From Isoetes taiwanensis (lineage: Eukaryota; Streptophyta; Lycopodiopsida; Isoetales; Isoetaceae), in contig JAJEKV010000023.1 in NCBI GenBank assembly GCA_021234155.1, forward strand, positions 5,601,945-5,665,944: a stretch of 64,000 nt of DNA, in the 5' to 3' direction. A program made the position numbers and the translations under genes. Numbering within the stretch: the first letter of the stretch is position 1; the number at the start of each line of letters is the position of its first letter. Below are positions 20,095 to 64,000 of this stretch, in pieces. Under the pieces are notes generated by a model. The model was given only the letters and a program-made list of their open reading frames with translations, had not been told where the DNA came from and did not search any database.

Positions 20095-20411
20095 ACCTAC
20101 AAACCAATTTAGATTCATTAATCTTGCTTTGTGACTTTTTTCAAACCTTCATTATGAATCTTTACCTACTTTATTAAGAGTTAGTTTCTCTTTTAATTTT
20201 TTTTTTAAAACCAACTATTGAAATTTTTTCTTGCTCTTAACCACTCCACATCAGTGTTTCTTTGACATCCCTAACATTTTTAAAAAACAACATTCTTAAC
20301 TAGAAACCCGAAAATCAATAATGCAATTTTTTTCAAAAACCCTGCCCTTGTTTAATCAGTAGAAAGATTTCTATTTATTGATATATTAATAAAAAAATAA
20401 ACAAGAGTAGG

Positions 20412-35706: not shown

Positions 35707-37377
35707 TGTGACGCTCCCTGAACATATACGACCCTCGGCCGTATACATACGGGGACTTTCCCCTCCCATGGCGACCAACTCGCCATGAGCAGGGCCCTCC
35801 GTCTATTTCGGGCCATCTATAATATGATGCCCGAAAGAAGGACACGAAGGGGTCATTCGGCCCACGCCTTCAATGGGGCTCCTACGTCGCGGAAGCGTGA
35901 ATACAAGGGTTAGCACACAGCATAAATCACATATAAATAACCACCACGAAGGGTGGCGCATCCATCCAAATACCAACGGCAAAGAATATGCATCTAAACC
36001 TAAGAAAACACCCCAAACCCATGGTTCTACCCTCGCTCGGACTCGGTGAGGATCGACCGACGGCTAGGTCTCAAGAGATCAGCGGGACAGAATCTTGACA
36101 TGGCGTTAGGCTGGCATAGAACATTGGCTAGGGTTGTCCACTCCATCCGCCCCTCCGGTGCACACTTTGCGGATGAGTCGAATCATGCTATGGCATCACT
36201 ATAGCCTTAGGACCGCTTGGACTCAAGGTATCACCCTCACGAGCCTACTCACGGGGTTCATGAAGCCCGTCCGATGAGGCAGGTCGGGGAAGCGTCCCCT
36301 TCCGGGATCACGGTGGTTCCATGGGTGGACTAGAGAATACGCTTGCCGCATCGGCGACCCCGCATCCGTGCGGAGCTTACTCGCCCTAAATCTACTCAAA
36401 GTGCAAGGTGCCCCATGCGGGTCACACCAACTACACCCGTGGGAGTGTCGGACCCATACCCGGCACGGATCGCCTAGCTCACCGGGCCGGCTATTAGGCC
36501 TAGTCCCTTTGTAGGAGTCTCAGGAGCCTTTTATGTTCGTGCAAGACCCCACCCCCACTTCACCACTGTGTCCCTTGTTTGGTGCTAAGCCATTCCATAG
36601 CATCCACGACTCGGTGGGCTCTTGTGCACAGGCCGCATTATTGGGATAATAGAGGGCTCTACCTAGGAGCATACTACAATATATGGGCTCAGAGGTCTCT
36701 ACCCCCCTTATTTCCCCCATTTCCAGAGTAAGACTATGCAAAGAACTATCAATCCATCCTTTGAGAGCAAATCCAAAATCAGAATATAAAGAGAACTTAC
36801 CTTTACAACCAAGGGTTAGTTCCTACGAGTAAAAACACGAGAGAAACGGACAAAACAACACAACAAGTGCCCAAAAAGGGCTTATCCTAGAATATCAGCC
36901 TATACTAGCCACCTACCCGAAGTTCCTTGGACCCGTTATCGTTGGCGCTTCCATCTTCTTGGGACTTGGCGTTTAGCTCTGGCGGCAGTGCAGTGCTAGG
37001 CAAGGGTGGCGCCGTTGGGCAAAGGTAGGTAGGGCTCGGCTCCTCAAAGGTGGCTTCGGCTCCTCCCGGCTCCTCCGCAGTGGGTTATGGCTGATATGGG
37101 GGTAGTGATTCACCTTGATGCCTCAATTAGCATCACCATGTTAGCCAATCGATTTTGGCCAAGTGGCACCTTCCCAAACCATAATTAACTTAATTATCCC
37201 TTTTACATATTAATTCCTTAATTATAGGTTATTATCCTTAATAATTAAATTAGCATAGCTAATTTAATCCCTTTTAGGTCAACCCCCTAGGTTACCATAC
37301 CCCATGGTGGCGTATCTATACTGGGTGACGTGTCAATATATTTATACATATACCGTATAAATACTTGGAACGTCACA
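35707..37377 (-). repeat. 3' LTR of element A
   Basis: Bounded by TGTGACG and CGTCACA, 1671 bases, matching the LTRs of element B and the partial LTR at 63432. It is preceded on the minus strand by the polypurine tract, which identifies it as the 3' LTR. Confidence 0.92.
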
Positions 37378-37392: not shown

Positions 37393-38043
37393 AAAATAAT
37401 GCTGTCCTCAGCATTGGGGTTAGATACAATTGTAGTACATGACATTATAAAGGAAGGGAATTCCTTATTCCAGAAAGTAATATATTAAAGCTTTCAAGTT
37501 TACAACAGTTTAAGCAGCAAAAGTACAATTCACATCCTTATCATAATTAAAAAGTGCAAGGACCAAAGTCCAAGATTAACAACAACAGAACATGTAGATA
37601 ACATAAAGCGAAGAAATCGGGTCATCAGCAACCCCCTAACATGGACAGGTCACGTACCGCTCACTGGCCTGCACATGGTAATATATCAGTTTATATATAT
37701 ATAAAATAATTAGGTTGTGGTTGAAGGGTCCACCCCCTATATAAAAAAAAAATGAAAGAAAATTTATCTAGAAGGAACCTATCATGCCTATGGTTCGCAG
37801 TTCATTGTGGCGTAAGGAATGGTCAGGTTCCTATTATAGCCAAGATGAATGCGGTTATGAAGTACATGCTTTACAAGCAGTTCGCGGTCATGTCCACATT
37901 GACAGTACACCACGTCCTAAGGAACACAAAGGTGATCCCATCATCGGTAACCGTTGTTAATTACGATGCATCTACCCCCCTACTGATTCTCGGCGAATCA
38001 AGTCTTCAAGCTTACCGCCGGGAGCGGGGTTGATAGCATCGTT
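37393..38043 (-). other. Element A 3' untranslated region and end of integrase
   Basis: On the minus strand it begins with the tail of the integrase frame (AINPA...GKLEDLIRRE near 38000), homologous to element B at 56150-56205, followed by about 600 bases of untranslated sequence shared with B. Confidence 0.7.
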
Positions 38044-44000: not shown

Positions 44001-44059
44001 GTTTTCACTAATAAATCATTTCAAAAAAATCATACTGATTCAATTTTGGGGGCCTTGTG
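38044..44059. mobile_element. 6,016-bp DNA transposon with 16-bp TIRs, inserted in element A
   Basis: The ends are perfect inverted repeats, CACAAGGCCCCCAAAA at 38044 and its complement ending at 44059, flanked by the 3-bp target duplication GTT (38041-38043 and 44060-44062). Removing it rejoins the integrase tail of element A (TIN then DAINPA). A 3-bp TSD with CAC...GTG ends fits the En/Spm-CACTA superfamily, although the ends are CACAA rather than CACTA. The interior is AT-rich with no transposase; short open frames (such as minus 38547-38762 and plus 41057-41293) and a spliced-looking stretch near 42340-42450 may be captured gene fragments. It includes a GGCTCC run at 41702-41728. Confidence 0.88.
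42643..43235 (+). repeat. Direct tandem duplication of 297 bases
   Basis: Sequence starting TTGACTGGTACGTAGTTG at 42643 is repeated from 42940 with very few differences, both copies ending with TACACTAGGTAATGC. It is inside the 6-kb DNA transposon and noncoding. Confidence 0.92.
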
Positions 44060-45202
44060 GTTGATGGTGCGGCCTTGAGATTCGCGCATGAAATCCGGAT
44101 AGTGCTTCTCAAGATCTGTTTGCATCACCCACATAGCATCCTCGACTGGCAAGTGTTTCCACTTGACCAAATATTGTAACATTTGAGTCCTTCTGGTCTG
44201 TTTATAAGCTCGATCAAGAAGAGCTTCAGGCACTATCTCTAGTTGTTCCTCTGTCATTTCGGGGAGGGTTGGGGTTTCAAAACCTCCTGCGGATCGTGGG
44301 TGTCTTTGCTTTAGAAGACTCACATGAAAACCTTGTGGATCTTTAAGCAAGGTGGCAAGTCCAGCGATATGCTTGCTCCCCAACACGTTGGTGATTTTGA
44401 GCGGTCCAGCCCATCCGGGTGCTAGCTTTTTGCGATTACCAATCTTAAGCTTGGCTTGTTTTACCTTAATCTTAAGCCAAACCGATTCACCCACCGGAAG
44501 ACTCGTGGGGTCTGTGCTTATCGGCTACACTCTTAGCGGCGACAAGCGTGCGACCAATAGGTAAACCACGAACTTCCTCGACCCGAGCTTGCATTTCCAA
44601 GAGGAGTTGCCGAGAGACCTCCACTTTAGAAGCGGGGTTATGCCATTAATGCGGAGTAAGGCATTGATAACCATAATTTATCATGAAGGGAGACATTCGG
44701 AAGATTCTGTTTCATCTTGTTATAGGCAAATTCGACCCGGATAAATATAGTCAGCCCATTGGGATTGCTTACTCCACACATAACTTCGTAGCATATCCTC
44801 TATAATACGATTGGTACGCTCTGTCTGACCATCCGTCTGAGGATGATATGCGGTACTCATAGCAAGCTTAGTCTGGATAGTAGCAAAGAAATCTCTCCAG
44901 AAAGCACTTACAAATTTGGGATCCCTGTCGGAGACAATAACTCGTGGCATTCCGTGCAATCTGAAGATCTCCTTTGCAAAAAGCATAGCATTATCGAAGG
45001 CTGTGTCCGTGGTACGACATGGCAAGAAATGAGCCATTTTGGACAATTTGTCGACCACTACCATTAACGCATCATATCCACGGAGAGTACGTGGAAGGCC
45101 CACAATGAAATCCATGGTTATCACTTCCCACTTAGCGTTGGGCACATCCAAAGGTTGCAACTCTCCTGGAGTCCTTAATTGTTCCGCCTTGGTCTGCTGA
45201 CA
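44060..45202 (-). pseudogene. Element A integrase core, GPF/Y region and chromodomain (C-terminal half)
   Basis: From 45202 downward on the minus strand: QQTKAEQLR (end of the zinc-binding domain, the rest at 58460), MDFIVGLPRTLRGYDALM with the first catalytic Asp, IVSDRDPKFVSAFW with the second, and STAYHPQTDGQTERTNR with the catalytic Glu. A damaged segment (44500-44720) is followed by GWAGPLKI and FHVSLLKQ (GPF/Y module) and a chromodomain-like LQYLVKWKHLPVEDAMWV. Element B inserted in the zinc-finger coding region. Confidence 0.85.
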
Positions 45203-45207
45203 CACTT

Positions 45208-46834
45208 TGTGACGTTCCAAGTATTTATACGGTATACGTATAGATATGTTGACACGTCACCCAGTATAGATACGCTACCATGGGGCATGGTAACCTAGGG
45301 GGTTGACTTAAAAAGGATTAAATTAGCTATGCTAATTTAATTGTTAAAGATAATAACCTACATTTAAGGGATCATTATTTATAAAGGATAATTAAACTAA
45401 TTATCCTTTGGGAACGCGCCACCTGGCCAAACCTGGTTGGCCAGCATGGTGAATGCTATTTTGGACCGATAAGGTGGATCACCACCCCGTATCCACCATA
45501 ATCGACCTGGTGGCGCCTACCTTGGGATTGAGCCGAGCGCCACCTTGCCCCAAGACTTGCACCTGTGATCGAGGTGAGCATCGAAGTTTGAAGGATGGAG
45601 GCACCAAACGATAACGGGTCGAAAGGGAATACTGGTGGATGGCTAGTATAGGGTGATATTCTAGGGTAGCCCCTTTTGGGCACTTGTGTGTTGTCTTGTA
45701 TGTTTCTCTGTGCTTTTTATTCGTAGGAACTAACCCTTGGTTGAAAAGGTAAGTTCTCTTTATATTTTGATTCGGGTTTTGCTCTCAAAGGATGGATTGA
45801 TAGTTCTTTGCTTAGTTAGCACTCGAGATGGGGGATTACGGGAGGGTAGAGACCTCACGAGCCCATATATTGTAGTATACTCCTAGATAAAGCCCCGTAT
45901 TATTCCAATATTGCGGCACATTGCACAAGAACCCTTAGGGTCATAGATGCTATGGTAATTGGCTTAGCACCGGACAAGGAACACTGGTGGTGAAGTGGAG
46001 GTGGGGTCTCGCACGAACATAAAAGGCTCACAGGACTCCTATAGCGAGCTAGACCGATAGCCCGGTCACGTAGAGGGCGGGTATGGGTCCGACACTCCAC
46101 AGGTGGGAAGGTGTGACCCGTATGGGGCACCTTGCACTTTGAGTAGATTTAGGGCGAGTAAGTCGGGTGCGGATGCGGGGGTTGTGATGCGCACGTATTC
46201 TCTAGCTTCGCCCATGGAGCCTTTGTGATTACGGAAGGGGCGCTTCCCACGACCTGCCTCATCGGGACCAGGGGCTTCATGAACCCCGGAGTAGGCTCAG
46301 CCGGGGGTGATGCCTCGAGCCTGCGTCTCAGGAAGGCTATAGCGGCGCCATAGCGTGAATTGACCCATCCGCAAAGTGTGCGGGAGGGGCGGATGGAGTG
46401 GACAACCCTAGCCAATGTTCTATGCCAGCCAACGCCATGTCAAGATTAAATGCGCGCTGATCTCTTGAGGCCTAGCCGTCGGTCGATCCTCACTTTGGAG
46501 TGCAGGCGGGGTAGAACCATGGGTTTGGGGTGTTCTCTTAGGTTTAGATGCATATTCTTTGCCGTTGGTATTTGGATGGATATGCCACCCTTCGTGGTGG
46601 ATATTTATATGTGATTTATGCTGTGTGCTAACCCTTGTATTCACGCTTCCGCGACGTAGGAGCCCCATTGAAGGCGTGGGCCGAATGACCCCTTCGTGTC
46701 CTTCTTCCGGGCATCGTATTATAGGTGGCCCGAAATAGACGGAGGGCCCTTCTCATGGCGAGTTGGTCGCCATGGGAGGGGAAAGTCCCCGTATGTATAC
46801 GTCCGAGGGTCGTATATGTTCAGGGAGCGTCACA
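45208..46834 (+). repeat. 5' LTR of element B
   Basis: 1627 bases. Over most of its length it is identical to the 3' LTR; differences are concentrated in short patches near CTG or CCGG contexts (compare about 45890-46340 with 57530-57960). Confidence 0.93.
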
Positions 46835-46835
46835 G

Positions 46836-46847
46836 TGGTATCAGAGC
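46836..46847 (+). other. Primer-binding site, initiator tRNA-Met
   Basis: TGGTATCAGAGC lies one base after the 5' LTR and is the complement of the 3' end of plant initiator tRNA-Met, the usual primer for chromoviruses. Element A has the same site at 63419-63430. Confidence 0.9.
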
Positions 46848-47433
46848 ATGGTTCTGGGAAGCCAAACTATTGCACTGGCCACATACTAACTCGATAGATC
46901 GTTAGCTAGAGAGTGAGGATTTTGGAGTAGTACTGAGTTTTTTTGGGTGGTGTAATGGATGCGCCATGCTTGCTTTAGTGTGGTATAATTGTAATTGAGA
47001 GGGTGTACCGGTACCCAACCCTAACCCTAAGTGGGAGGGGGGCGGGGGGGGTGTCGGGTGGCGCTTGAAGTAGAAACCTCGGGGTAGGGGTGCCGCCACC
47101 TAAAAAAAAAAAAAAAAAAAAAAAAAAACCCAAACCCTAAGTGGCGGGGGGGGTACGGGGCCTTGTGGCGCTTAATGGCGACGTCGAGGTAGGGGGTGCC
47201 CGCCACCTCGAAAAGCGCGCCCCGTCACTTTTTCATAAAAAGTTTTTTAGGGTTAAAATTTTAAAAGTGACTTTTTCTTTCACTTTTCTTAAACACCTAG
47301 CGCCCTTTTGAGCTCCGCCTGGCCGCCATAGCCGCCGGAACTAGAAGCTTCCCTCTGCCATAGCCAAACCTCGCCCCTTACCTTTCTCCCCCAAGCGCCT
47401 GCCCAGCGCCCACCTAGCGCCTACTCTATAAGG
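46848..47433 (+). other. Leader of element B with duplicated GC-rich segment
   Basis: A unit with AACCCTAAGTGG, a G-rich run, TGGCGCTT, GTAGGGGTGC and CGCCACCT occurs at about 47018-47102 and again at about 47132-47210, separated by a run of 26 or more A. No coding frame is evident before the ATG at 47434. Confidence 0.6.
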
Positions 47434-48785
47434 ATGGAGACACCCAAGCAAGTTTATACGCGTAAGCCTCGCTATTCCAAAACCCCTATAGAGCTTATAA
47501 TGGCTGAATTGCTGCCACAACGAGACCCGCGATTGAGAAGTTTAAGACCCAAGAAATTTGGAGTATTTAGGTGAAACGCTTTTACGAAGGGGTCAGAATC
47601 CCATACCCGCTCTTTTGCTATAATGAGCGCTTTGTGTTCAAGCTCAACGCTATCCGGGAGACCTGCATAGTAGTGGAACAGGAAGATGGCGTCCAGAAGT
47701 ATGCCCGGTACTTTCCGCCAGCAGGGGATGAACAAGCAGAGGAGGAGGCCTTACAAACGCAGGCCCAGAACAGTTTGCAAATGGCCCAAGAGGCGGATCT
47801 GCAGTGGTTAGCATTGGATGATCCGGCTTCAGGATACCGCTACCTAGGAAACGGCATGTGCCTCTTTGATGGGGGAGCCTATACTCTTCCATCGTTTTCA
47901 TATGAAGAGGAGACCAACCGTATCCTCTGGGAAGCAGGATCACCCTCGTATTTCACAGATCACTTTCAGCGGGCTGTTGAACGAGACATGCAAGCTAATC
48001 CCCCACGTTACTTCATAGAGCTTACAAGAAGAACGGAGATTAGAATAGCCAAAGAGAAGCAAGCAGAGGAGCAAGCCACACTCCGGGCGCAAGCACAGAA
48101 GGCAACACAGTTGACGGAGGAGGCTGCCAAGCTTCGTGAGGATACTATTCATCAGCAACAGGTAGAACAAGAGCAAAATCTGAAGAGAATGCAGGAAGAA
48201 GCAGAGGAAAGAGCAAGAGAGGCAACCGAAGCCGTGAAGGAGCGACTGAGGAAGGAAGAGGAAGAAAGGCATCGGCAAGAGCAACCACCTGCAGAAGCCC
48301 GTGTTCCTCGCCGAAGACAAAAGAAGACACCCCAAAGATCTGGTGCTCAGTATAAGGATCAGCTTAGGGCTCGAGGAGGGATCGCTAAGGCTGCAGGGGA
48401 TAACCGGCGGGACAATATCATCCGTAAAGCCCGGCATCCTGGAACAGCAGGGAAGACTCTACCCGGAGCTGCACCCCAACCTAGGAGGAGGCATCGTTAC
48501 AAGCCTGGTACCGTGGCACTTCGAGAGATAAGGAAGTACCAGAAATCCACTGAGTTTCTGTTACGAAAACTTCCTTTCCAGCGTCTGGTCCGAGAAATTG
48601 CCCAGGAATTTAAGACGGACCTTCGTTTTCAAACTCATGCCATCCTAGCACTTCAGGAGGCGGCCGAGGCTTACTTGGTGGCCCTCTTTGGCGATGCAAA
48701 CCTATGTGCCATCCATGCCAAGCGAGTAACCATCATGACAAAAGACCTACAGTTAGCACGCCGGATCCGTGGGGAACGGTCATAA
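47434..48785 (+). CDS. Coiled-coil to histone H3 fusion encoded by gypsy element B
   Basis: A continuous frame of 404 codons ends at 48785; an upstream ATG at 47434 ([18 protein letters not shown]) joins it after one frame change near 47570, giving about 450 residues. Within the 404-codon frame, residues 1-150 are unrecognised, 152-238 are a Glu/Gln/Lys/Arg-rich coiled coil, 243-307 are basic, and 308-404 are the histone H3 core. H3 landmarks are [53 protein letters not shown] and ARRIRGER. The 97 residues align with canonical H3 39-135 without a gap, with about 12 differences from the plant H3 I remember. The ARTKQTARKS tail is absent. It lies between PBS and gag, same strand as the element. 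Canonical RIRGER and KTDLRFQ make it unlike CENH3. Confidence 0.9.
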
Positions 48786-51416
48786 TTATGTACATCACAA
48801 TTTTGTATCTATGTAAATCGGTATATATATTAATACAAAACTGTTTTGACTTCTTATTTTGAATTGTGAATTTTCCTACAATTAAAAAAATAAAAATAAT
48901 AATAATAAGCGAAAAAAAAAAAGAGATGATGAGTCGGCGCCTCGAGCAGCGGTGCCCGACAAAAAGTTAAATACTCAGATTCATTTTAGGGTTTCATCAT
49001 TTCTTACTCTGTTTCCTTCTTCCTCCCATCTCCCGCTGCGGTGATGGACTATTTGTTGGCCGACTAGCATGGTACATGGGAGGCGAGCAATGGGATCCCC
49101 GGGTTCCTTACCCTCTCTTGGATCCTATGTTGCGAGTTGATTGACCTCATCGACAATATCTTGGCGCCCACCCGACTATGCGACCTTTGTAGAGTTCTAT
49201 GATGAGGAAATATTGCCAAGCGGAATTCTTTGGGGAACCGCCCCAACCTTATCTTCTGAGAGATATTGTGGAGCATATGTTGGGAGATGATCGCCACAGC
49301 TATGACATCCTCAAGGGCATCATCGGGCGTGCTAAGCACGCTCCCATTATCGATTGTGGCTCCAACGTACTTTGAAGCCCGGTTTGCTTTTGCTCTTATT
49401 ATGGGACGGTATGTAGATGGTATGCGACACCGCTTTAGAGCAAGCTAAGGCCCCACTTCCTCCGGATCGAGAGGAGGACGAAGCAGATAAACTTTGCTGA
49501 TTTTTATGCGATGGAAGGAGTTAGCTAAAGAGAGGCCTTTACCTCGTAGTAAGGGCCAAGCACTTGTGGGATTGAGTTCGCTTGCTACCATCAAGGTTGG
49601 GGATCGGGATTACTTGGCTGGCGGCGACATTCAATGGGCGTATCGGCATATATCGCCAATAAGGGTAGCGGAGGACCGCTCACCTTCTCTATGAGCTGGC
49701 GAATATTGTCGGGGTCGACATGATTTCATTGATTACTCTCGCCCCAATTATGCGCGGAGATACATCAGTTGCTCAACTATCAACCTCTTGATGTTGAGCC
49801 TATCAATTACACTCTTGTCCTTGCGCCCGATTAATGATTGAGGTACCCCATCTTGAGTTCCTAAATCGGCTTTCGTGCTCACGGGGCCACATGTGCCCAA
49901 CATCAACGGCGTCGTCGTCAAGCTGGAAAACGACCCAACCATGGAGGATTTATGTGATGAGAGTCGGTATGCTCGGGAAGAGAAGGATTTTGCCATGGAG
50001 GAGGAGCTGCCCGAAACTTGGGTCCGAGTTGGCCTCTTCAACCCATCCGATGGTTCAAGGGTTGAAATGCCATATTACTTTCGATTCTTCTGTCGGCTTT
50101 CACAAGCGGGGCGGGTTCTCTTCTTTGCTAAGGCAATTGCCCCTGAAGCAGGCGGTACGTATGGGCATTAAGGGCACTTTCCACCCAGCCGGGCCACAAG
50201 AAATTAGCTCTAACCTTGAGCGGATCATCCTAGTGAACCGTGATCTTGCCATTGCGGTGTTTGACCATGAGATTGGTTCTTGGATGAACATGAGTCTGCT
50301 GGTTTGGCGGCCATTGGCTACAAATGTTCCTCCGAAATAGCTTCATCGGTTGCCTCATCGGTTAATCCTAGCGTGTTACTCCTCAAAGATCGACCCGAGC
50401 CCGGTTTGATACTCAAGCACAAGATGTTGACGGATCGACCTCTTAGTTTTAGGTTTCATTGGGTCATCATTATGAAATTTTGTTAATTTTGATTGGCATT
50501 ACCTCTAGTGGGCCAACACCAAAATCTATGTCTTGTTTTCAATTTTATATATATTAGGGATATCTTCTTATGTTTCTTGCACTGTTGAAAACCACTTCAT
50601 TGTTTTCTCCTTTCAATGATTAATTATTTTCCTTAAAGCTCCAGTGGAAGGAAATTGTTTTCAATGTATATATAATTATTCCTGTCGTCTTGCAGAAGAA
50701 ACACTTGAGGAATACGGGGCCGGGATCACCCGATCGATAAGAATGGATGAGCAGGGGACCTCTGAGCGGGACTATGGGGAGCGGTACAACGAGTATCTGA
50801 GCGGGAAGTTGGCGATGACATAAGCGGAGCTTAGGGTCCCGGAACAACCTTATGATCCCGACAAGGGCATGGAAGTAGTTACTCTTCTTCGAGCGTGCTA
50901 CGATGATCCGAGATGGACTCTTTCCCGTACTTGGGATTATTGGAATATGACCCCACATCAAGCTTTTGATGATGCTAATGATCATCTCTGGCAAATCTTC
51001 TATGCACTGCGAAGGCTCTTCAACCTTCTGATTATTAGCCCCACTTGGGATTATCAACCCGTTATTATCCAGGCTTGGGCACGCTACAAGCTCGTCAGAG
51101 CTGTGCGTGAGAGTGTGCGCTATGCCGTCATGTATCCCTACGCAAACCCTTAAGCCACAATTTCCAGTTTTGTGTGTTCCTATGCTTCACCATGGCTAGG
51201 AAATGGCTTGTATCAGGCCTCTTTATGTATTATATAACTACAAGTTTATAACTGTGTTCCATATAAACTTCTTTGATGTAACCGTTATCTCCCTTGTAAA
51301 TTGAATCTTCCGTCCTTTTTCGTGTTCACTTTGTGTTTCTTGATACTACTCAGAATGACTTTGTTATAACACTTACTATTATCGTACTCTTTCTTATATC
51401 ATCGTATGTTTAATAT
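48786..51416 (+). pseudogene. Extra decayed coding region between H3 and gag in element B
   Basis: This 2.6-kb stretch is absent from element A, where only about 190 bases separate H3 from gag. It begins with AT-rich sequence ending in an A-rich run (48886-48924), then fragments such as HVPNINGVVVKLENDPTMED and ETWVRVGLFNPSDGSRVEMP (49875-50171) and a 94-residue frame at 50869-51153 (TWDYWNMTPHQAFDDAND). None is recognised. It may be a second captured gene or an older insertion. Confidence 0.4.
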
Positions 51417-52640
51417 AGACGGTGCACGCAATGCCGCCTGGCAGACACCCTCAAGCGCCCGGTCGGTTAACACCGAACAAGAATTGATCTTTGATGAAAA
51501 GGCGGTTAGGGCGAATTCTGAGGGCCTACGTCTTGCATGCTAACCCACCCAAAGCATGTACAGCGGGGCCTTACTTAGGAGTTACCTCCGTTACCACCTA
51601 GTCCACCTACACGTGGCCGTCCCCACCACGAACTAGTCACGTACTGTGCGAAAGAGGTCCCCTCTAAGCGCCCGGCGGAGCTCCTCTAGAGGCAAGTGCC
51701 ACCTCTTCAAAGTACGCCCGCCGGTGTCATCGCATCATCGGCATCATCGGGGGCCATGCAAAGCCCGAGATAAGGAGTACCGCAAGGCAGTTGATACTGA
51801 CCATAACTAGTATGATGGAAGAATAGGAAATTGGCCCGGTTTGATGGGAAATCTAGAAGCGGCTTGAATAGAATCCGGGCTGGGACGAAATGAAGGAGTT
51901 GGCAGGTCCTATGGCATGGCAGAGAGAAGGATCTGAGGAAAGGTTGCCACCACAAACCTTACGGAGCTGCCCGTATTTGGTGGAAGGGCTATGCGAGCCA
52001 AACAAACATCGGGACAGGAGTAGATGCAACTTGAGAAAGTTTGCCAAGGCCTTCAAATCGCATTATGTGCCTCGTGCACATAAATGCCAGCAGATCCGGA
52101 CTTTCTGAGGTTGGGCGGGGAAGAGTATGTCGTCTGAGGCCTACGGATGAGTTCATGCGCTGAGGCTGTATGTACTGGTATGAATGAGAAAAAGGCGGTG
52201 GGAGGGCTATATTGAGGGTTTGGCACCATCGATCAAAGCGGATGGTTAAGGCCATCGACCGAAATCGATTCTTGGCGAGGCTAAAGCATTGAGCCTCGAG
52301 GAGGACATACCAAGAAATCGATATCCGCGTCCTGCTCCTTACTCGCGACCCACGGCCGTCCACACCTTACAAACCCCCGCTCTCCAAGTCCGGGGCCCTC
52401 TCAGTGAGAACTCTTTACGGTGCCGCTAGGAGAGAAAATTAAGCTTTTAACACGCCCGGATAAAAGAGAACAATGCGGGTAAGGAAGTTCGAAACCTCTT
52501 ACTGATCCATTCCTAAAGAGGCCGGAGAACATTTGCTTGTAGGGATAAGGCATGTTACTGGTGTATGAAGCGGGACACTTCATGCGCGAATTGCCCATAT
52601 GTTACCCAGGTGCCTTGGTGGCCATGGCCGACTTTGACTG
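51417..52640 (+). pseudogene. gag region of element B, frameshifted
   Basis: It starts after the sequence AATATAGACGGT shared with element A. It contains a GAARIWWKGY-type capsid segment (near 51960), KFAKAFKSHYVP (near 52035) and a zinc knuckle near 52550 (CYWCM...CPY) in which the histidine spacing is damaged; element A keeps the standard CCHC form. Confidence 0.75.
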
Positions 52641-53276
52641 GGGCGATATTGAGTCAACATTACCTGGCGGCGAGGGGCGGCTCGAGTACATTCAGCGTCG
52701 TCTCATATCCTTGCGGCTATAGAAACGGCAATCTTTGAAAGTCACTTCTTTGTCATTTCCACCATAGGCCAAATAGACAGTAAGCCTTTTGTAATTCTTA
52801 TGGATACGGGGAGTACACATAATTTTGCTTCTCCTAGAATGGCCCAGGTCCTACAACTGGAAACCCTAAGGTCACGACCAAGACCTGTCACTTTAGCCAG
52901 TGGTAAGGTTAGACATACTCATGGTCGTCGCATCAACCTTAAGATGCAGTTGCCAGGCGCACTAGTTGCTATGGGTGCCGAGTTAATGGATATTGGCAAA
53001 TACGACCTCATTGTTGGAATGGAATTCTTGGCATCTGCAAAAGCCAACATAGACTGCGAGAAGAGAGAAGTTACCTTCAACGCAGACTAATGGAGCCGTG
53101 TAACTATAAAAAGGTGAACCATTCAACCCTATCATGCAGTCTATGTCCATTCGACAGTTAGATAAAGCTATACGCAAGCAAAAGCTCCTCTGCCTTATTA
53201 GACTTGCTTCCATTGAGGCAGATGTTAAGCAAAACCAAGTAATCAACACCTTGCCACGGGGATTGCGGTATTCTCC
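52641..53276 (+). pseudogene. Aspartic protease region of element B
   Basis: The active-site motif [13 protein letters not shown] starts at about 52794 and [13 protein letters not shown] lies near 52993, typical of a Ty3/gypsy pepsin-like protease. A frame change near 53090 separates it from RT. Confidence 0.85.
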
Positions 53277-54640
53277 ATGAATTTAGCGATCTTTTCCCGG
53301 GACGAGATCCAGAAGCTTCCTCCTTTTAGAGGGGTAGAATGTGAGATAGCTTTAGAGCCAGGCACTAAGCCTACCAGCAAGGCCCCGTACCGGATGAGTC
53401 CCCCAGAGTTGGCAGAGCTTAAGAAGCAACTTCAAGAGCTGCTAAACCTAGGTTTTATTCGACCTAGCGTTTCGCCCTTTGGCGCCCCTATTCTTTTTGT
53501 AAAGAAAAAGGACGGCTCCTTGAGAATGTGTATTGATTATCGGCAACTCAACAAGCATACCATCAAAAATCGCTATGCTTTGCCGAGAGCAGATGATCTA
53601 ATGGATCAGTTGCAAGGGGCCAAATATTTTTCAAAGATTGACCTTAATTTCGGGATATCATCGGATAAGGATTAAAGAGGAGGGCATCCATAAATGCTTT
53701 TAGCACTAGATATGGACATTATGAGTTTACCGTTATGCCTTTCGGATTAACTAATGCCCCATAGCGTTTATGCGGTTAATGAGCGATGTTTTCCGACAAT
53801 ACTTGGATGATTTTGTTGTCATTTTCTTTGGCGACATTCTCATCTCTGATAAGACTCTAGAAGAGCATGAGAGACATCTTAAATTGGCCCTACAAAAGTT
53901 AAGGCGTCATCAGCTTTTTGCCAAGTTCTCTAAGTGCAAGTTTGCCACTCCAAAGGTTGACTATTTGGGCCATATCATTTCTGCGAGAGAGGGAATTACT
54001 TTCTGAGATCCGGCAAAAATAGAGGCCGTAAAGGGAATGGCCTATTCGAGAAAATGTCTCAGGGTCCGAAGTTTCTTGGGATTAGCGGGATACTATCGAA
54101 AGTTTGTAAAAGGATTTTGCAAGGATTGCAGCACCTCTTACAAACCTTACAAAAGCATGAAAAGGTGAAGGATTGGATGGAGCCTTTGGAAGACTAAGGT
54201 TCAGGGAAATTTCCAGCTGACTTAAAGATGCCTTAACCCAAAGACCCGTTCTCACGTTGCCCGATCGATAAGGATAAACTAGTGGCCCGGAGATGCAAGT
54301 AAAATCGCCACTGGTGGGGTTCTAATGCAGGAGGGGAGGGTTATTGCTTATGATTCAAAGAAGATGAACGAGACGGAACAGCGATACCCTACCCATGATC
54401 AAGAGTTGTTAGCTGTTGTTCGCGCCTTGCGAATATGGAGACACTACCTCCTTGGTAGAAGGTTCGATTGGACCACGGATCACCAAAGTCTCCAGTTATT
54501 TATCCACCTAGCAAGAACCTCAACCTCCGGCCGAGGAGATGGATGGAATTTCTTGAAGAATATGATTTTGAGATCATGTATAAGCCTGGAAAGCACAATG
54601 TGGTTGCGGATGCATTGTCACGCCATCCCTCGGTAACCCG
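53277..54640 (+). pseudogene. Reverse transcriptase and RNase H of element B, frameshifted
   Basis: RT motifs: [43 protein letters not shown] and the catalytic YLDDFVVIF near 53803. RNase H follows with AYDSKKMNETEQRYPTHDQE near 54346 and TDHQSLQ. At least four frame changes lie between these blocks. Confidence 0.88.
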
Positions 54641-56210
54641 AACCCATTGTAACGCAATTTCTACACTCACCAGTGAGTTTGGGAAACAGATAGAACAGAC
54701 TTTGGCCACGGATCCCGAGTTTTGTGAAATGCGGGCTAGTTTGAGTAAGGAGGCACGCGATAGCGATAAAGAACGCGAAGCTTTCCGTTCATATAAGAAA
54801 GAGGGCAATTTGTTGTATCACAAGGATAAGTTATGTGTACCTCTGACTTCCGGGGTGCGTAAGTTAATCCTCCATGACACGCACAACAGCCCTATAGCTG
54901 GACATGCGGGTTTTATGAAGACCTATTTTAAAATCCGCTCTAGTTACTTTTGGCCTTCCATGAAGAAGGATATTGCTAGATACATTAAGCAGTGTCAAGT
55001 GTGTCAGCAAACCAAGGCGGAGCAACTAAGAGTTCCAGGAGAGCTGCAGCCTTTGGATGTGCCCCACGCAAAATAGGAAGTAATAACCATGGATTTCATT
55101 GTAGGCCTTCCACGAACTCTCCGTGGCTATGATGCATTAATGGTGGTCGTCGACAAATTGTCAAAAATGGCTCACTTCTTGCCATGTCGTACCACCGACA
55201 CTGCCTTCGACACCGCCTTGCTTTTCGCAAAGGAGATCTTCAGGTTGCACGGAATGCCACGGGTTATTGTATCTGACAGGGATCCCAAATTTGTAAGTGC
55301 ATTCTGGAAGGATTTCTTCACCACCATACAGACCAAGCTTGCTATGAGTACCGCATATCATCCTCGGGCCCGATGGTCGGAGACAGAAGCGTACCAACCG
55401 TATCATAGAGGATATGCTCACGAAGTTATGTGTGGAGTAAGCAATCCCAATGGGGTGACTATATTTATCTAGTAGAGTTTGCCTATAACAAGATGAAAGG
55501 AGTCTTCCAAAATGTCTCCTTTCATGATAAATTATGGTTATCAATGTCTTAATCGACACATGGCACAACCCCGTCGAAAGTGGAAGTTTCTCAACAACTC
55601 CTCACGGAGATGCAAGCTTTGGTCGACAGTGCGTGGTTACTTGCTGGCTGCGACTAAAATCGTCAAAAGAGTGTAGCAGATAAACACGGGACCCCACGAG
55701 TCTTCCGTGGGGCGAATCGGTTTGGCTTAAGATTAAAGTAAAACAAGCCAAGCTTAAGATTGGTAATTGCAAGAAGTTGGCACCCGGATGGGCTGGACCG
55801 TTCAAAATCATGAGCGTATTGGGGAGCAAGCATATCGCCTGGACTTGCCACCCGGCTTTAAAGATCCACAAGGTTTTTCATGTGAGTCTTCTAAAGCAAG
55901 CACACCCCTGATCCGGAGGAGGTTTTGGAAACCCCAACCCTCACGGAAAATGAGGAGGAGCAGCTAGAGATAGTACACAAGCTCTTCTTGATCGAGCTTA
56001 TAAAAACGACCGGGAGGACTCAAATGCTACAATACTTGGTCAAGTGGAGACACTTGCCCGCCAGAGGATGCTACATGGGTGATGGAAGCAGATCTTGAGA
56101 AGCACTATCCGATTTCATGCGCGCGAATCTCAAGGGCGCACTATCAACGATGCTATCAACCCCGCTCGTGGTAAGCTTGAAGACTTGATTCGCCGAGAAT
56201 GGTAGAGGGT
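54641..56210 (+). pseudogene. Integrase and chromodomain of element B, frameshifted
   Basis: The zinc-binding domain lies near 54880-55015 (HDTHNSPIAGHAGF ... CQVCQQTKAE), then MDFIVGLPRTLRGYDALM near 55089 and VSDRDPKFVSAFW near 55268. The region of the catalytic Glu is scrambled near 55370. GPF/Y and chromodomain segments (about 55790-56110) are broken by frame changes; the end reads GKLEDLIRREW then stop at about 56205. Confidence 0.85.
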
Positions 56211-56832
56211 AGATGCATCATACTTAACAACGATTCACCGATGATGGGATCACCTCTCGTGTTCCTTAGGGCGTGGTGTCTTGTCAATGTGGACATGACC
56301 ATGAACCGCTTGTAAAGCAGTGTAGTTCATAGTCTGCGTTCATATTGGCTATAATAGGAACGACCATTCCTTAGGCCACAATGAACTGCGAACTATAGGC
56401 ATGATAGGTCCCTTGTAGATAAATTTTCTTTTATTTCTTATAGGGGGTGGACCCTTCAACCACAATCTAATTACTTTTTTTATCTATGAAAACTGATATA
56501 GTGACATGTGCGGGGCCGATTGAGCAAAGACGTGACCTTTGCCCATGTATAGGGGGTTCTTGATGACCCGACTTTCTCCGTTTTCATGGTGTTTACACAT
56601 AGTTCTTTAGTGCTACACTGTTTTTTGATATTGGACTTCGGTCCTTGAACTTTTTAATTATGATAATCATCTGAAATGCACTTTGGTGCTTGAACTGTTT
56701 TGAACTTCGAAAGTTTTAATATATTACTTTGGGAAACAAGGAATTATCTTCCTTTATAATGTGTTTTCTTTATTGGTATATCTTCAACTAACCCTAATGC
56801 TGAGGACAGCATTAATTCTAAGGAGGGGAGAA
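56211..56832 (+). other. 3' untranslated region and polypurine tract of element B
   Basis: It is noncoding and homologous to 37393-38000 in element A, with the tract TAAGGAGGGGAGAA at 56818-56832 directly before the 3' LTR. Confidence 0.8.
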
Positions 56833-58454
56833 TGTGACGTTCCAAGTATTTATACGGTATACGTATAGATATGTTGACACGTCACCCAGTATAGATACGC
56901 TACCATGGGGCATGGTAACCTAGGGGGTTGACTTAAAAAGGATTAAATTAGCTATGCTAAGTTAATTGTTAAAGATAATAACCTACATTTAAGGGATCAT
57001 TATTTATAAAGGATAATTAAACTAATTATCCTTTGGGAACGCGCCACCTGGCCAAACCTGGTTGGCCAAAGATGGTGAATGCTATTTTGGACCCATAAGG
57101 TGGATCACCACCCCGTATCCACCATAATCGACCCGAGCCTGGCCTACCTTGGGATTGAGTGCGCCACCTTGCCCCAAGACTTGCACCTGTGTGATCGAGT
57201 GAGCATCGAGTTTTGAAGGATGGAGGCACCAAACGATAACGGGTCGGCGGGGAATACTGGTGGGTGGCTAGTATAGGCTGATATTCTAGGGTAGCCCTTT
57301 TGGGCACTTGTGTGTTGTCTTGTATGTTTCTCACGTGCTTTTTATTCGTAGGAACTAACCCTTGGTTGAAAAGGTAAGTTCTCTTTATATTTTGATTCGG
57401 GTTTTGCTCTCAAAGGATGGATTGATAGTTCTTTGCTTAGTTAGCACTCCCGAGATGGGGGATTACGGGAGGGTAGAGACCTCTGAGCCCATATATTGTA
57501 GTATACTCCTAGATAAAGCCCTGTATTATTCCAATATTGCGGCCTGTGCACAAGAACCCACCGGGTCATAGATGCTATGGTACTGGCTTAGCACCAGACA
57601 AGGAACACAGTGGTGAAGTGGAGGTGGGGTCTCGCACGAACATAAAAGGCTCCTGGGACTCCTATAGCGAGCTAGACCTGATAGCCGGTCACGTAGAGGG
57701 CCGGGTATGGGTCTGACACTCCCTGGGTGGGAAGGTGTGACCCGTATGGGGCACCTTGCACTTTGAGTAGATTTAGGGCGAGTAAGTCGGGTACGGATGC
57801 GGGGGTCGCTGATGCGGCACGTATTCTCTAGCTCGCCCATGGAGCCACTGTGATTCTGGAAGGGGACGCTTCCCTGACCTGCCTCATCGGACCGGGGCTT
57901 CATGAACCCTGGAGTAGGCTCAGCAGGGTGATGCCTCGAGCCTGCGTCTCCGGAAGGCTATAGCGACGCCATAGCGTGAATTGACCCATCTGCAAAGTGT
58001 GCACAGGAGGGGCGGATGGAGTGGACAACCCTAGCCAATGTTCTATGCCAGCCAACGCCATGTCAAGATTCTGTCTGCTGATCTCTTGAGGCCTAGCCGT
58101 CAGTCGATCCTCACTGGAGTCTGAACTGGGGTAGAACCATGGGTTTGGGGTGTTCTCTTAGGTTTAGATGCATATTCTTTGCCGTTGGTATTTGGATGGA
58201 TATGCCACCCTTCGTGGTGGATATTTATATGTGATTTATGCTGTGTGCTAACCCTTGTATTCACGCTTCCGCGACGTAGGAGCCCCATTGAAGGCGTGGG
58301 CCGAATGACCCCTTCGTGTCCTTCTTCCGGGCATCGTATTATAGGTGGCCCGAAATAGACGGAGGGCCCTGCTCATGGCGAGTTGGTCGCCATGGGAGGG
58401 GAAAGTCCCCGTATGTATACGTCCGAGGGTCGTATATGTTCAGGGAGCGTCACA
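56833..58454 (+). repeat. 3' LTR of element B
   Basis: 1622 bases, TGTGACG to CGTCACA, followed by the CACTT target duplication. See the 5' LTR for the pattern of differences. Confidence 0.93.
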
Positions 58455-58459
58455 CACTT

Positions 58460-59732
58460 GACACTGCTTAATGTACCTGGCAATGTCCTTTTTCATAGAA
58501 GGCCAGAAATAGCTGGAGCGAATCTTAAAGTAGGTTTTCATAAAACCGGCATGTCCAGCTATAGGGCTGTTGTGCGTGTCATGGAGAATTAGCTTACGCA
58601 CTCCTGAAGTCTCAGGTACGCACAACTTATCTTTGTAATATAACAAGGTGCCCTCCTTCTTATATGAACGGAAAGCTTCACGCTCCTTATCTGTGCGAGC
58701 TTCCATAGCCAAACTGTCCCAAACATCACGAAACTCGGGATCCGTGGTCAAGGTCTGTTCTATCTTTTTCCCAAACTCACTGGTGAGTGTGGAAATTGCA
58801 TTACAATGGGTTTGGGTTACCAAAGGATGGCGTGACAATGCATCCGCAACCACATTGTGCTTCCCAGGCTTATACATAATCTCAAAGTCATACTCCTCCA
58901 GAAATTCCATCCATCTCCTCTGACGGAGGTTGAGATTCGGCTGGGTGGATAAATAACGGAGACTTTGATGATCAGATCCAATCGAATCTTCTACCAAGAA
59001 GGTAGTGTCTCCATATCGCAGATAACCGGACAACGGCTAGCAATTCCGATCATGGGTAGGATATCATTTGCTCCGTCTCATTCATTTTCTTTGAATCATA
59101 GGCAATAACCCTCCCTCTCCGCATTAGAACTCCACCAAGTAGCAATTTTATCGGCATCCGTTTGCTACTAGTTTATCCTTCTCGTGGTCGGGCAATGTGA
59201 GCACCGGTGGCGACGTTAAAGCATCTTTAAGTCTGGCTGGAAGCTTCCCGAACCTTTACTTTCCAATGCTCAATCCAATCCTTTACCTTCTCATGCTTTG
59301 TAAGATCGGTAAGAGGTGCGGCAATCTTCGCAAAATCCCTAACAAATTTCCGATAATATCCCGCTAGTCCTAAGAAACTTCGGACCCGGAAACATTACCG
59401 GAATAGGCCATTCCCCTTCCGCCTCTATCTTGGCCGGATCCGTCGCGATGCCCTCTGCTGAAATGATATGTCCCAAATAATCCACCTTGGGAGTGGCAAA
59501 CTTGCATTTAGAGAACTTGGCAAAGAGCTGATGGCGCCTTAGCTTTTCTAGGGCCAAACCAAGATGTTTCTCATGCTCCTCCGGGGTTTTACTATAGATG
59601 AGAATGTCGCCAAAGAAAATAACAACAAAATCATCTAAGTATTGCCGGAAGACATCATTCATTAATCGTGATAAACGTTATGGGGCATTAGTTAATCCAA
59701 AAGGCATAACGGTAAACTCATAATGCCCATAT
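58460..59732 (-). pseudogene. Element A RT C-terminal part, RNase H and integrase zinc domain
   Basis: On the minus strand YLDDFVVIFFGDILIYSK lies near 59640 and KVDYLGHIISAEGI near 59475. RNase H is damaged near 59000-59150, followed by HNVVADALSRHP (near 58840) and the integrase zinc domain HDTHNSPIAGHAGF to IKQCQVC at the insertion site of B. The frame resumes at 45202. Confidence 0.85.
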
Positions 59733-61259
59733 CTAGTGCGAAAGGCAGATTTTATGAATGTCCTCCTCCTTAATCCTTATTTGATGATATCCTGAGCGTA
59801 AATCAATCTTTTTGAGAAATGCTTGGCCCCTTGCAACCGGGTCCATTAGGTCATCCGCCCTAGGCAAAGCGTAGCGATTCTTGATGGTGTGCTTATTGAG
59901 CTGCCTATAGTCAATGCACATCCTCAAGGAGCCATCCTTTTTCTTGACAAAAAGGATAGGAGCGCCAAAAGGCGAAACACTAGGCCGAATGAAGCCTAGG
60001 TTTAGTAACTCCTGAAGTTGCTTCTTAAGTTCTGCCAACTCAGGGGGACTCATACGGTACGGGGCCTTACCGGTAGGCTTAGTACCTGGTTCCAAAGCTA
60101 TCTCACATTCTACCCCTCTAAAAGGAGGAAGCTTCTGGATCTCATCTGGAAAAAGATCGCTAAATTCTCGGAGAAGATTGGCAATCCCTTCCGGCAAGGT
60201 ATCAACTACTTGCTTCTGCTTGGCATCTGATTCAATGGAGGCAAGCCTAATAATGCAAAGCAACTTATCCTTACGTATAGCTTTATGTAACTGCCTGATG
60301 GTGATAGACTGCATAATGGGGTTTAAGGAGTCACCTTTTATAGTTACGCGGGCTCCGTTAGCGGCGTTGAAGGTAACTTCCCGTTTCTCGCAGTCTATAT
60401 TGGCTTTTGCAGATGCCAAGAATTCCATACCAACAATAAGATCATACTTGCCAATATCCATTATCTCGGCACCCATGGCAACCGGTGCACCTGGCAACTG
60501 CATCTTAAGGTTAATGCGACGGCCATGCGTATGTCTGATTCTACCACTGGCTAAGGTGACAGGCTTCGGTCGAGATCTCAAGGTTTCAAGCCGCAATACC
60601 TGGGCCATTCTAGGAGAAGCAAAATTATGTGTACTACCCGTATCCATCAGAATGATAAAAGGTTTGCTGTCTACTTGACCTATGGTGGAAATAACGGCAG
60701 GCTGACTTTCAGCATTGCCGGTTTCAATAGCTGCAAGGATATGGGACTCACCGTGAATGTAATTGGGAGCCTCCTCCTCGACAGGTAGAGTCGACTCGAG
60801 ATCGTCCCAATCAAGGTCGGCCATGGCCAGCTGGGCAGTCTGTGTGACATAAGGGCAATTCTGCATGTAGTGCCCGGGTCGCATACACCTATAACATGCC
60901 TTATCCCTGCGTAACTGATCTCGGGCCTCTTTGGGAATAGATTGTAAGAGATCCCGAACTTCCTTGCCGACATTATCCGGTTTGTCGGGCATGTTGAAGG
61001 TGACTTTCTTTTCCTGGCGGCCGTAAGAGTTCTGCTGAGAGGGCCCCGGACTTGGCGAGCGGGGTTGGTAAGGTGTGGACGGGCGTGGCTGCGAGTAAGG
61101 AGCAGGACGCGGATACTGGTTCCTTGGTGTGTCCTCCTCGAGGCTCAATGCCTTAGCCTCCGCCTCTGCAACTGATTTTGGGTCTATGGCCTTAACCATT
61201 CGCTTAATGGATGGGGCCAATCCTTCAATGTAGCCCTCCACCGCCCTCTTTTCATTCAT
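59733..61259 (-). CDS. Element A gag C-terminus, protease and RT N-terminus (508 codons open)
   Basis: The longest intact gypsy frame here: gag end with a Pro-rich linker ([18 protein letters not shown]), a CCHC zinc knuckle [14 protein letters not shown], the protease motif [26 protein letters not shown], then [22 protein letters not shown] and [11 protein letters not shown]. Gag and pol are in one frame, as in many plant chromoviruses. It ends in a frame change just after [12 protein letters not shown]. Confidence 0.88.
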
Positions 61260-62200: not shown

Positions 62201-62503
62201 TCACCGAAACTCCCCTCGGATCCTTCGTGCCAGCTGGAGGTCCTTGGGCATGATGGTGACCCTCTTTGCGTGTATGGTGCAAAGGTTGGCGTCGCTCAAG
62301 ATTTCGATGAGGTAAGCCTCGGCAGCCTCCTGAAGTGCGAGGATTGCAAAAGCTTGGAACCTCAGGTCGGTTTTAAAATCCTGGGCAATTTTCCGCACAA
62401 GCCGCTGGAAAGGGAGCCGACGAATCAATGGCTCAGTTGACTTCTGATAGTTACGTATCTCCCGAAGTGCTACCGTGCCCGGTCGGCTTATTCCTAGGGG
62501 ATA
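62201..62503 (-). CDS. Histone H3 core encoded by gypsy element A
   Basis: The open frame from 62503 to the stop at 62201 contains [18 protein letters not shown] (from 62485), [54 protein letters not shown] and ends EFR. The 94 residues from Arg at 62485 align with canonical H3 42-135 without a gap. It shares ANLC (canonical TNLC), the Ile in AIL and the Leu in KDLQ with element B. No coiled-coil extension is present; a stop lies 18 bases upstream of the start of the open frame, so expression would need splicing or another start. It is about 190 bases before gag, same strand as the element. Confidence 0.85.
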
Positions 62504-63431: not shown

Positions 63432-64000
63432 TGTGACGCTCCCTGAACATATACGACCCTCGGCCGTATACATACGGGGACTTTCCCCTCCCATGGCGAC
63501 CAACTCGCCATGAGCAGGGCCCTCCGTCTATTTCGGGCCATCTATAATATGATGCCCGAAAGAAGGACACGAAGGGGTCATTCGGCCCACGCCTTCAATG
63601 GGGCTCCTACGTCGCGGAAGCGTGAATACAAGGGTTAGCACACAGCATAAATCACATATAAATAACCACCACGAAGGGTGGCGCATCCATCCAAATACCA
63701 ACGGCAAAGAATATGCATCTAAACCTAAGAAAACACCCCAAACCCATGGTTCTACCCCGGCTCAGACTCCAGTGAGGATCAACTGACGGCTAGGTCTCAA
63801 GAGATCAGCAGACCGAATCTTGACATGGCGTTAGCTGGCATAGAACATTGGCTAGGGTTGTCCACTCCATCCGCCCCTCCTGTGCACACTTTGCAGATGA
63901 GTCGAATCATGCTATGGCATCACTATAGCCTTCCGGACACGCAGACTCAAGGTATCACCCTACGAGCCTACTACAGGGTTCATGAAGCCCCGTCCGATGA
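63432..64000 (-). repeat. 5' LTR of element A, partial
   Basis: It matches 35707-36270 and the 3' part of the B LTRs in reverse orientation, and continues beyond the window end. Confidence 0.92.

Follow-up and report, generated by a model that had tools for sequence, protein, structure and literature searches.

The window analysed here, a stretch of 64,000 nucleotides from Isoetes taiwanensis, contained two Ty3/gypsy LTR retrotransposons, one nested in the other, and each of them carried a histone H3 core. The inner element, E1, occupied positions 45208-58454 on the forward strand. LTR comparison revealed its 5' LTR (45208..46834, TGTGACG...CGTCACA) and 3' LTR (56833..58454), which were flanked by matching target-site duplications, CACTT, at 45203..45207 and 58455..58459. 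The PBS TGGTATCAGAGC, which we take to be of the initiator-Met tRNA type, was located directly after the 5' LTR (46836..46847), and the PPT AGGAGGGGAGAA (56821..56832) abutted the 3' LTR. The two LTRs, the short target duplication (also found in E2), the PBS and the PPT assigned E1 to Ty3/gypsy and bore out the preliminary description of a structurally complete element with an H3 frame between PBS and gag on the same strand. The leader between the PBS and this frame contained a run of 27 A at 47102-47128. The gag-pol of E1 (51393..56148, forward strand) was homologous to that of E2 and contained many frame-breaking indels; Pfam showed RT, integrase zinc finger and integrase core in the Ty3 order, with RT below the cut-off in the scanned piece. 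A second, broken frame (49193..51153, forward strand) was located between H3 and gag, in pieces at 49193, 49491, 49857, 50271 and 50824. None of the five pieces had a Pfam match, and the portion from 49826 onward was also present in another copy, L029, which had an RT match of 6e-34.

The insertion of E1 interrupted the integrase gene of the second element, E2, which lay on the opposite strand. The 3' LTR of E2 (35707..37377, reverse strand) and its 5' LTR (its part in the window at 63432..64000, reverse strand) were flanked by the target duplication ATATA at both ends of the element, the start of the 5' LTR being about 1.1 kb past the window. The H3 core of E2 (62210..62485, reverse strand) consisted of 92 codons, lacked the N-terminal part found in E1, and lay between LTR and gag, the same place as in E1; gag started only about 0.7 kb past H3. 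The end of gag, the protease, RT and the start of the integrase were found at 58443..61259 (reverse strand), including an open frame of 508 codons at 59733-61259, and the integrase core with a chromodomain was found on the far side of E1 (44030..45220, reverse strand; rve 5.2e-9, Chromo 1.2e-8). The last listed frame of the former and the frame of the latter each entered E1 by a few bases. The pol order was PR, RT, RH, IN according to Pfam, with RT and RH below the cut-off in the scanned pieces, and the chromodomain at the C terminus of the integrase (44033-44494, reverse strand) identified E2 as a chromovirus. Between the chromodomain and the 3' LTR, about 6 kb (38042-44060) had no counterpart in E1 and contained a 297-bp unit repeated twice at 42639-43232; this stretch is probably another nested insertion. 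Elsewhere in the window, a frame of 504 codons at 18604-20118 (reverse strand) had no Pfam match at 0.01.

The H3 core and the protein that carries it

The H3 core of E1 was encoded at the end of an open frame of 404 codons taken from the ORF list (47571..48785, forward strand), which consisted of an orphan N-terminal part, a helix, a basic linker and the H3 core. The core (48492..48785, forward strand) comprised 97 codons and a stop, was H3.3-like (Tyr41, His87, Leu90) and had no insertion in loop 1. The Pfam Histone model matched residues 294-400 of the protein at 2.2e-36, with 125.2 bits against a cut-off of 26.4. The closest solved chain to the frame was H3.3, and the best chains were H3. 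Codons 48492-48782 were 87.6% identical to plant H3.3 over 97 amino acids without gaps. The gap-free H3 core described from the letters at the end of this frame was thus confirmed by Pfam, by the solved chains and by alignment. The E2 core was identical to H3.3 at 77 of 92 positions (84%).

Residues 87 and 90 are diagnostic for the H3.3 type. His87 was present in 30 of 31 sequences and Leu90 in all 31, so that the core shared with H3.3 both the gap-free fold and the residues of this type. It differed from H3.3 in its fusion to other sequence, in the lack of the canonical tail (ARTKQTARKS... with its modifiable lysines) and in Lys42, Phe60, Leu62, Ile89, Ala107 and Leu124, which were common to all 21 of the closer E1-type sequences. 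Some deeper E1-type copies retained Leu60, Ile62 or Val89, and the H3 of E2 also had Ile89, Ala107 and Leu124. A long, divergent N-terminal part ahead of an H3 core might suggest CENH3, the centromere-targeting variant. CENH3 has a longer loop 1 and a diverged core, whereas the core here had no loop-1 insertion, matched H3.3 without gaps at 87.6% identity and kept His87 and Leu90; this identity was rejected, and centromere targeting is very improbable.

The preliminary description had called the 404-codon frame intact. It was open over all 404 codons, but the E1 copy was broken near its N terminus. The frame started with GTG right behind an in-frame TAG (47568-47570), and the ATG at 47434 lay in a different frame with an early stop. 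In most of the relatives fetched from the genome, the ORF started at the position corresponding to 47434 of E1, and in 17 of the 20 fetched copies it extended over 444-455 codons from the first ATG (L010, L016 and L020 were shorter). Therefore, the stretch at 47434..47570 (forward strand) represents a broken first part of the ORF, about 46 codons long, in the E1 copy.

A single long helix was predicted by single-sequence AlphaFold2 for residues 147-235 (48009..48275, forward strand), with mean pLDDT of 79-94 per 10 residues across 161-230 and low values in most other parts. It was followed by a basic linker in place of the H3 N-terminal tail (48276..48491, forward strand). The replacement of the tail by a basic linker and a long coiled coil, as described beforehand, stood with respect to the tail, but the coiled coil fitted the E1 subfamily only: the three E2-type proteins (L052, L053 and L054) had a divergent, Q/D-rich, repeat-like segment where the E1 subfamily had the helix. 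Mimicry of the H3 tail by the N terminus and linker of E1 was rejected because 782 and 804 of 2000 shuffles scored as high. In the HMMER alignment the H3 match reached back into the linker, as far as residue 292, at low posterior, and a Lys27-like motif, G-K-[ST]-x-P, was found ahead of the core in all 11 E1-type and all three E2-type aligned copies. Since the tail alignment was not significant, we do not claim this motif as a remnant of the tail.

The N-terminal part had no relative at an E value of 0.1 among 3,513 candidates when used alone, and none among 7,997 scored candidates when an alignment of 11 copies was the query. Weak Pfam matches were found among these 11 copies (DUF5960 in five and AAA_19 in three), and a low-confidence single-sequence AlphaFold2 model and structure comparison did not give a reliable fold for this domain. 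Beyond this genome, the 404-residue query gave 4,908 matches, the 120 listed of which were named histones, uncharacterised or hypothetical proteins. Five proteins examined among the matches listed had at least two H3 cores each and no N-terminal part of this kind. The viral contigs scanned with H3 and with the gag-pol of E2 gave no match.

Copies across the genome and constraint on the protein

The assembly of 1,658,258,908 bases in 1110 sequences was searched with the 404-residue protein and with the H3 of E2. The first query gave at least 108 matches to the E1-type fusion, a lower bound because 103 of 17,536 first-look candidates were scored, and identity among the matches listed ranged from 57 to 100%. 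Sixty-five of these 108 were near full length (from residue 15 or before to residue 393 or beyond); 22 of them had no stop, 17 had one and 26 had more. Two E1-type matches lay within 6 kb at G000:C1045:27217811-27223608 and three within 29 kb at G000:C1035:11041981-11070640, and these may be nested or tandem. The second query gave at least 150 matches at 88-100% identity among those listed, again a lower bound (150 of 8,492 candidates scored). Even the weakest of the listed E2-type matches was nearer to E2 than H3.3 is, with 88% identity to E2 compared with 77/92 between E2 and H3.3.

Twenty copies were fetched from the other 107 E1-type matches, 19 of them free of stops. An E1-like LTR was located upstream in 19 of the 20; the exception was L019, where the nearest 4.4 kb contained no such LTR. 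In L015 the LTR ended about 4 kb upstream compared with the usual 0.75 kb or so. The exact PBS string was found in 12 of the 20 copies, and the expected 3' LTR in four of seven copies examined. The stretch downstream of H3 in L011 matched RT at 6e-34 and gag at 0.0018, the latter below the cut-off. Matching 5-bp duplications were read in four elements: CACTT in E1, ATATA in E2, GGAAA in L009 and AAAGT in L011. The LTR context of the E2-type set was represented by one copy, E2. H3 between PBS and gag was thus a property of many LTR elements of this genome. An assembly artefact or contamination, which might be suspected because the repeats of this long-read assembly contain many indels of 1-2 bp, has a negligible probability, as the copies were on many contigs, had different target duplications where these were read and showed graded divergence.

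Three E2-type loci were chosen because their open frames were long, and they encoded proteins of 443-453 residues. Their N-terminal parts were 29-34% identical to those of two E1-type proteins and their H3 parts were 81-86% identical. Because both parts aligned between the subfamilies, the fusion predates the subfamily split and points to a single origin, and, both subfamilies having the fusion, the E2 element of the window is a copy that lacks the N-terminal part. The sequence after the H3 stop of E1 was AT-rich and ended in an A-run, as a retroposed mRNA might leave, so a processed pseudogene of host H3 inserted by chance into one element was considered. It was refuted by a multi-copy, constrained family: H3 occupied the same place in E1 and E2, more than 100 matches to the same fusion were found, the N-terminal part was common to both subfamilies and the dN/dS of H3 was 0.025. 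We give this explanation virtually no weight.

In E1 and the 20 fetched copies, dN/dS over all pairs was lowest in H3 (0.025), followed by the N-domain (0.087), the helix (0.154) and the linker (0.174); this set of 21 copies kept L027 and L028 despite their incomplete ends, and, as 19 of the 20 copies behind these values and the indel figures were stop-free matches, it favours open frames. The three E2-type copies gave 0.04-0.05 in H3 and 0.11-0.15 before H3. Additionally, 14 more divergent copies, 11 with stops, were fetched, and their pn/ps was 0.18 for H3, 0.37 for the N-domain, 0.47 for the linker and 0.56 for the helix, values that are higher partly because shifted frames were included. 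Decayed copies in such a sample would be expected to weaken the constraint, and H3 was still the lowest. When nine of the 14 were combined with E1 and the 20 copies, pn/ps in H3 was 0.076 (the other five, whose H3 was gapped, only partly matched or broken in frame, were left out). The ratio lay far below 1 in the stop-free copies and was 0.18 in the H3 of the divergent, mostly broken ones; with H3 present in many copies as well, neither of the outcomes named beforehand as refutations, a single H3 copy or a dN/dS of about 1, was observed. Between E1 and E2, the H3 proteins were 83% identical while 72% of the synonymous sites differed; dN/dS was about 0.05 with dS saturated, and none of 20,000 neutral draws reached the observed protein similarity.

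The indels showed the same constraint. In 11 well-aligned pairs, from which pairs with L015, L019 and L024 were left out owing to poor alignment outside the ORF, the number of indels per kb was 21.3 in the LTR, 16.2 in the leader, 3.8 in the first 48 codons and 0.60 in the next part. H3 had no indel over 3267 aligned nt, and the first 200 nt past the stop had 18.1 per kb. The corresponding values for 14 near-neighbour pairs were 20.8, 16.7, 3.05 and, for the 404-codon part, 0.47; H3 again had no indel, here over 4158 aligned nt, and the value past the stop was 17.5. The first 48 codons lay outside the search query, yet they had few indels in both sets. In bins of 40 nt, no indel was found in the last 40 nt of the ORF and 11 were found in the next 40, so the shift fell at the stop.

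The preliminary description had suggested recent capture or selection on the fold. Selection was supported by dN/dS and by the indels, whereas recent capture was not, because synonymous sites were near saturation both between E1 and E2 and between more distant copies. A captured host gene copied by the element without use would be in line with the captured genes that occur in LTR elements, with the stops in 43 of the 65 near-full-length matches listed and with the pn/ps of up to 0.56 outside H3 in the divergent copies. Such a passive passenger is nevertheless highly unlikely, since H3 had changed little while synonymous sites approached saturation, dN/dS was low throughout the protein among the stop-free copies of both subfamilies, and H3 was the lowest even among broken copies. 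The H3 fusion is present family-wide in two old subfamilies and is under purifying selection, above all on H3; that this is an H3-bearing family under selection we regard as almost certain.

Decay of gag-pol was seen beside the conserved ORF. Over 5413 aligned nt of gag-pol and the stretch before it, E1 and L011 were separated by 108 internal indels, of which 101 broke the frame (two end overhangs are excluded from the count). Between these two copies dN/dS was 0.55 in one part of gag-pol and 0.34 in another, compared with 0.10-0.13 against E2, and E1 and L011 are not autonomous as assembled because their gag-pol is frame-broken. Homopolymer error of nanopore reads as the main source was rejected, as it explains few of the indels: 10 of the 70 one-base indels in gag-pol fell in runs of four or more, which make up about 7% of all bases. 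The heavily frameshifted gag-pol beside an indel-free H3 is real in the assembly, and part of it may be assembly error.

The LTRs of one element diverged by about 5.2-5.8% in E1, L009, L011 and L018 and by 12.3% in L017. The ORFs of E1 and L009 differed by about 18 synonymous and five nonsynonymous changes and no indel in 1212 nt; if the LTR ages are right, so few changes despite LTR divergence of about 5% mean that both ORFs were protected after insertion. The differences between the two LTRs of an element fell, for most pairs of elements, into similar 100-bp bins, with Spearman coefficients of 0.49-0.72 among E1, L009, L011 and L018 and 0.22-0.55 with L017. Ordinary mutation after insertion does not predict such clustering across independent elements, and this, together with possible assembly error in high-copy repeats, makes LTR dating doubtful. 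The numbers suggest protection of the ORF after insertion, and assembly error may explain part of them. Retention of the ORF by the host, with many insertions domesticated and selected in place, would account for the contrast between E1 and L011, in which gag-pol decays while the ORF from codon 47 does not, and for the few differences between E1 and L009. We consider it unlikely, because it needs host selection on dozens of scattered copies, many copies are broken, and the LTR dating behind it is open to the errors just described.

A proposed role on chromatin

The residues kept in the H3 core bear on its function. Positions that we take to belong to the H3-H3' bundle, the ASF1 surface and the DNA contacts were conserved, position by position, in 29-31 of the 30-31 sequences compared, among them E2, and so were Lys56, Lys64, Lys79, Lys115 and Lys122; the five divergent sequences left out of the combined pn/ps above are outside this count. 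Owing to this pattern, the protein probably still folds and pairs as an H3, and the kept interface residues suggest a nucleosomal function, that is, formation of H3-H4 and entry into nucleosomes. The main rival to this reading is that the fusion acts inside the particle of the element, where it would pack cDNA much as a nucleocapsid protein does, and has no part in host nucleosomes. It would suit a protein that is encoded upstream of gag and has a basic linker and, in one subfamily, a helical segment. DNA packing alone would not need the H3-H3' and chaperone-surface residues, which were kept as strictly as the DNA-contact ones, and we regard packing as a possible but doubtful alternative.

For a nucleosomal H3, we propose the following explanation, to which, with its pairing to H4 and its entry into or docking on chromatin, we lean by a little. 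A chromodomain family of Ty3/gypsy would have gained an H3.3-like core in a single ancient event, at the C-terminal end of an additional protein of about 450 residues encoded between PBS and gag. In this protein, a conserved N-domain without known relatives precedes a variable segment, either helical or Q-rich, after which come the basic linker and the tail-less core. The core would pair with host H4, be taken up by H3-H4 chaperones and enter or dock on nucleosomes, while the N-terminal part would join H3 to the particle or RNA of the element itself. Pairing with H4 on chromatin, judged from the conserved residues, has about an even chance. The pre-integration complex might thereby be brought to chromatin, or the chromatin of the element might receive an H3 that lacks the tail with Lys9, on which silencing by the host depends; docking for integration and anti-silencing appear about equally likely. 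A stronger form, that of a selfish histone variant that would replace host H3 and, lacking the Lys9 tail, make chromatin the host cannot silence in the usual way, is tentative and rather improbable. It might act on the element's own copies or more widely, and the ORF would then be protected even in insertions with decayed gag-pol.

No LTR retrotransposon encoding H3 was found in the open-access literature among the matches listed, and subscription papers lay mostly outside this search. Captured host domains in Ty3/gypsy are already known; it is the H3 cargo and its degree of constraint for which no precedent in an LTR element was found. The closest precedent is the H3-like (H3L) ORF in a hAT DNA transposon of Pyrenophora tritici-repentis (PMC3538342), also an extra ORF of a transposable element that is multiplied by the element. 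H3L belongs to a fungal DNA transposon with 26 very similar copies in the reference genome and has its amino-terminal tail, whereas here a plant LTR retrotransposon carries a fusion with an orphan N-terminal part, in two old subfamilies and with measured constraint. Ty3/gypsy elements of Phalaenopsis with an ORF for a 2-ODD (AlkB-type) m6A demethylase (PMC9289625) likewise kept a captured host-type domain through subfamily divergence, but their cargo is an RNA demethylase and not a histone. The same paper surveyed the LTR elements of 121 angiosperms and reports 15 unusual domains in them; histone is not among the nine or so named in its section 12, and the word occurs twice in its text, in other senses. 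Plant chromoviruses (PMC3350952, PMC12786077) have the Ty3 pol order and a C-terminal integrase chromodomain as E2 does, and the passages of these two papers that were consulted do not mention the extra H3 ORF that E2 has. The additional ORFs of plant LTR elements (PMC7264820) are kept in most copies of a family, as is the ORF here, and some of their proteins are nuclear; those reviewed there are mostly located between pol and the 3' LTR, in contrast to the position between PBS and gag here, and the word histone does not occur in the main text.

The matches in the genome, at least 108 of the E1 type and at least 150 to the H3 of E2, some of them partial or broken, form a natural series of H3 cores that has evolved outside the histone genes of the host and reveals which changes the H3 fold can bear. 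Silencing of mobile elements works through marks on histone H3. With a tail-less H3 long encoded beside an integrase chromodomain, both sides of the silencing contest would be held in one mobile unit, and the family would make it possible to test directly whether mobile elements can provide parts of the nucleosome to escape silencing or steer integration. Judged from its sequence, a mobile element here seems to make part of the chromatin of its host.
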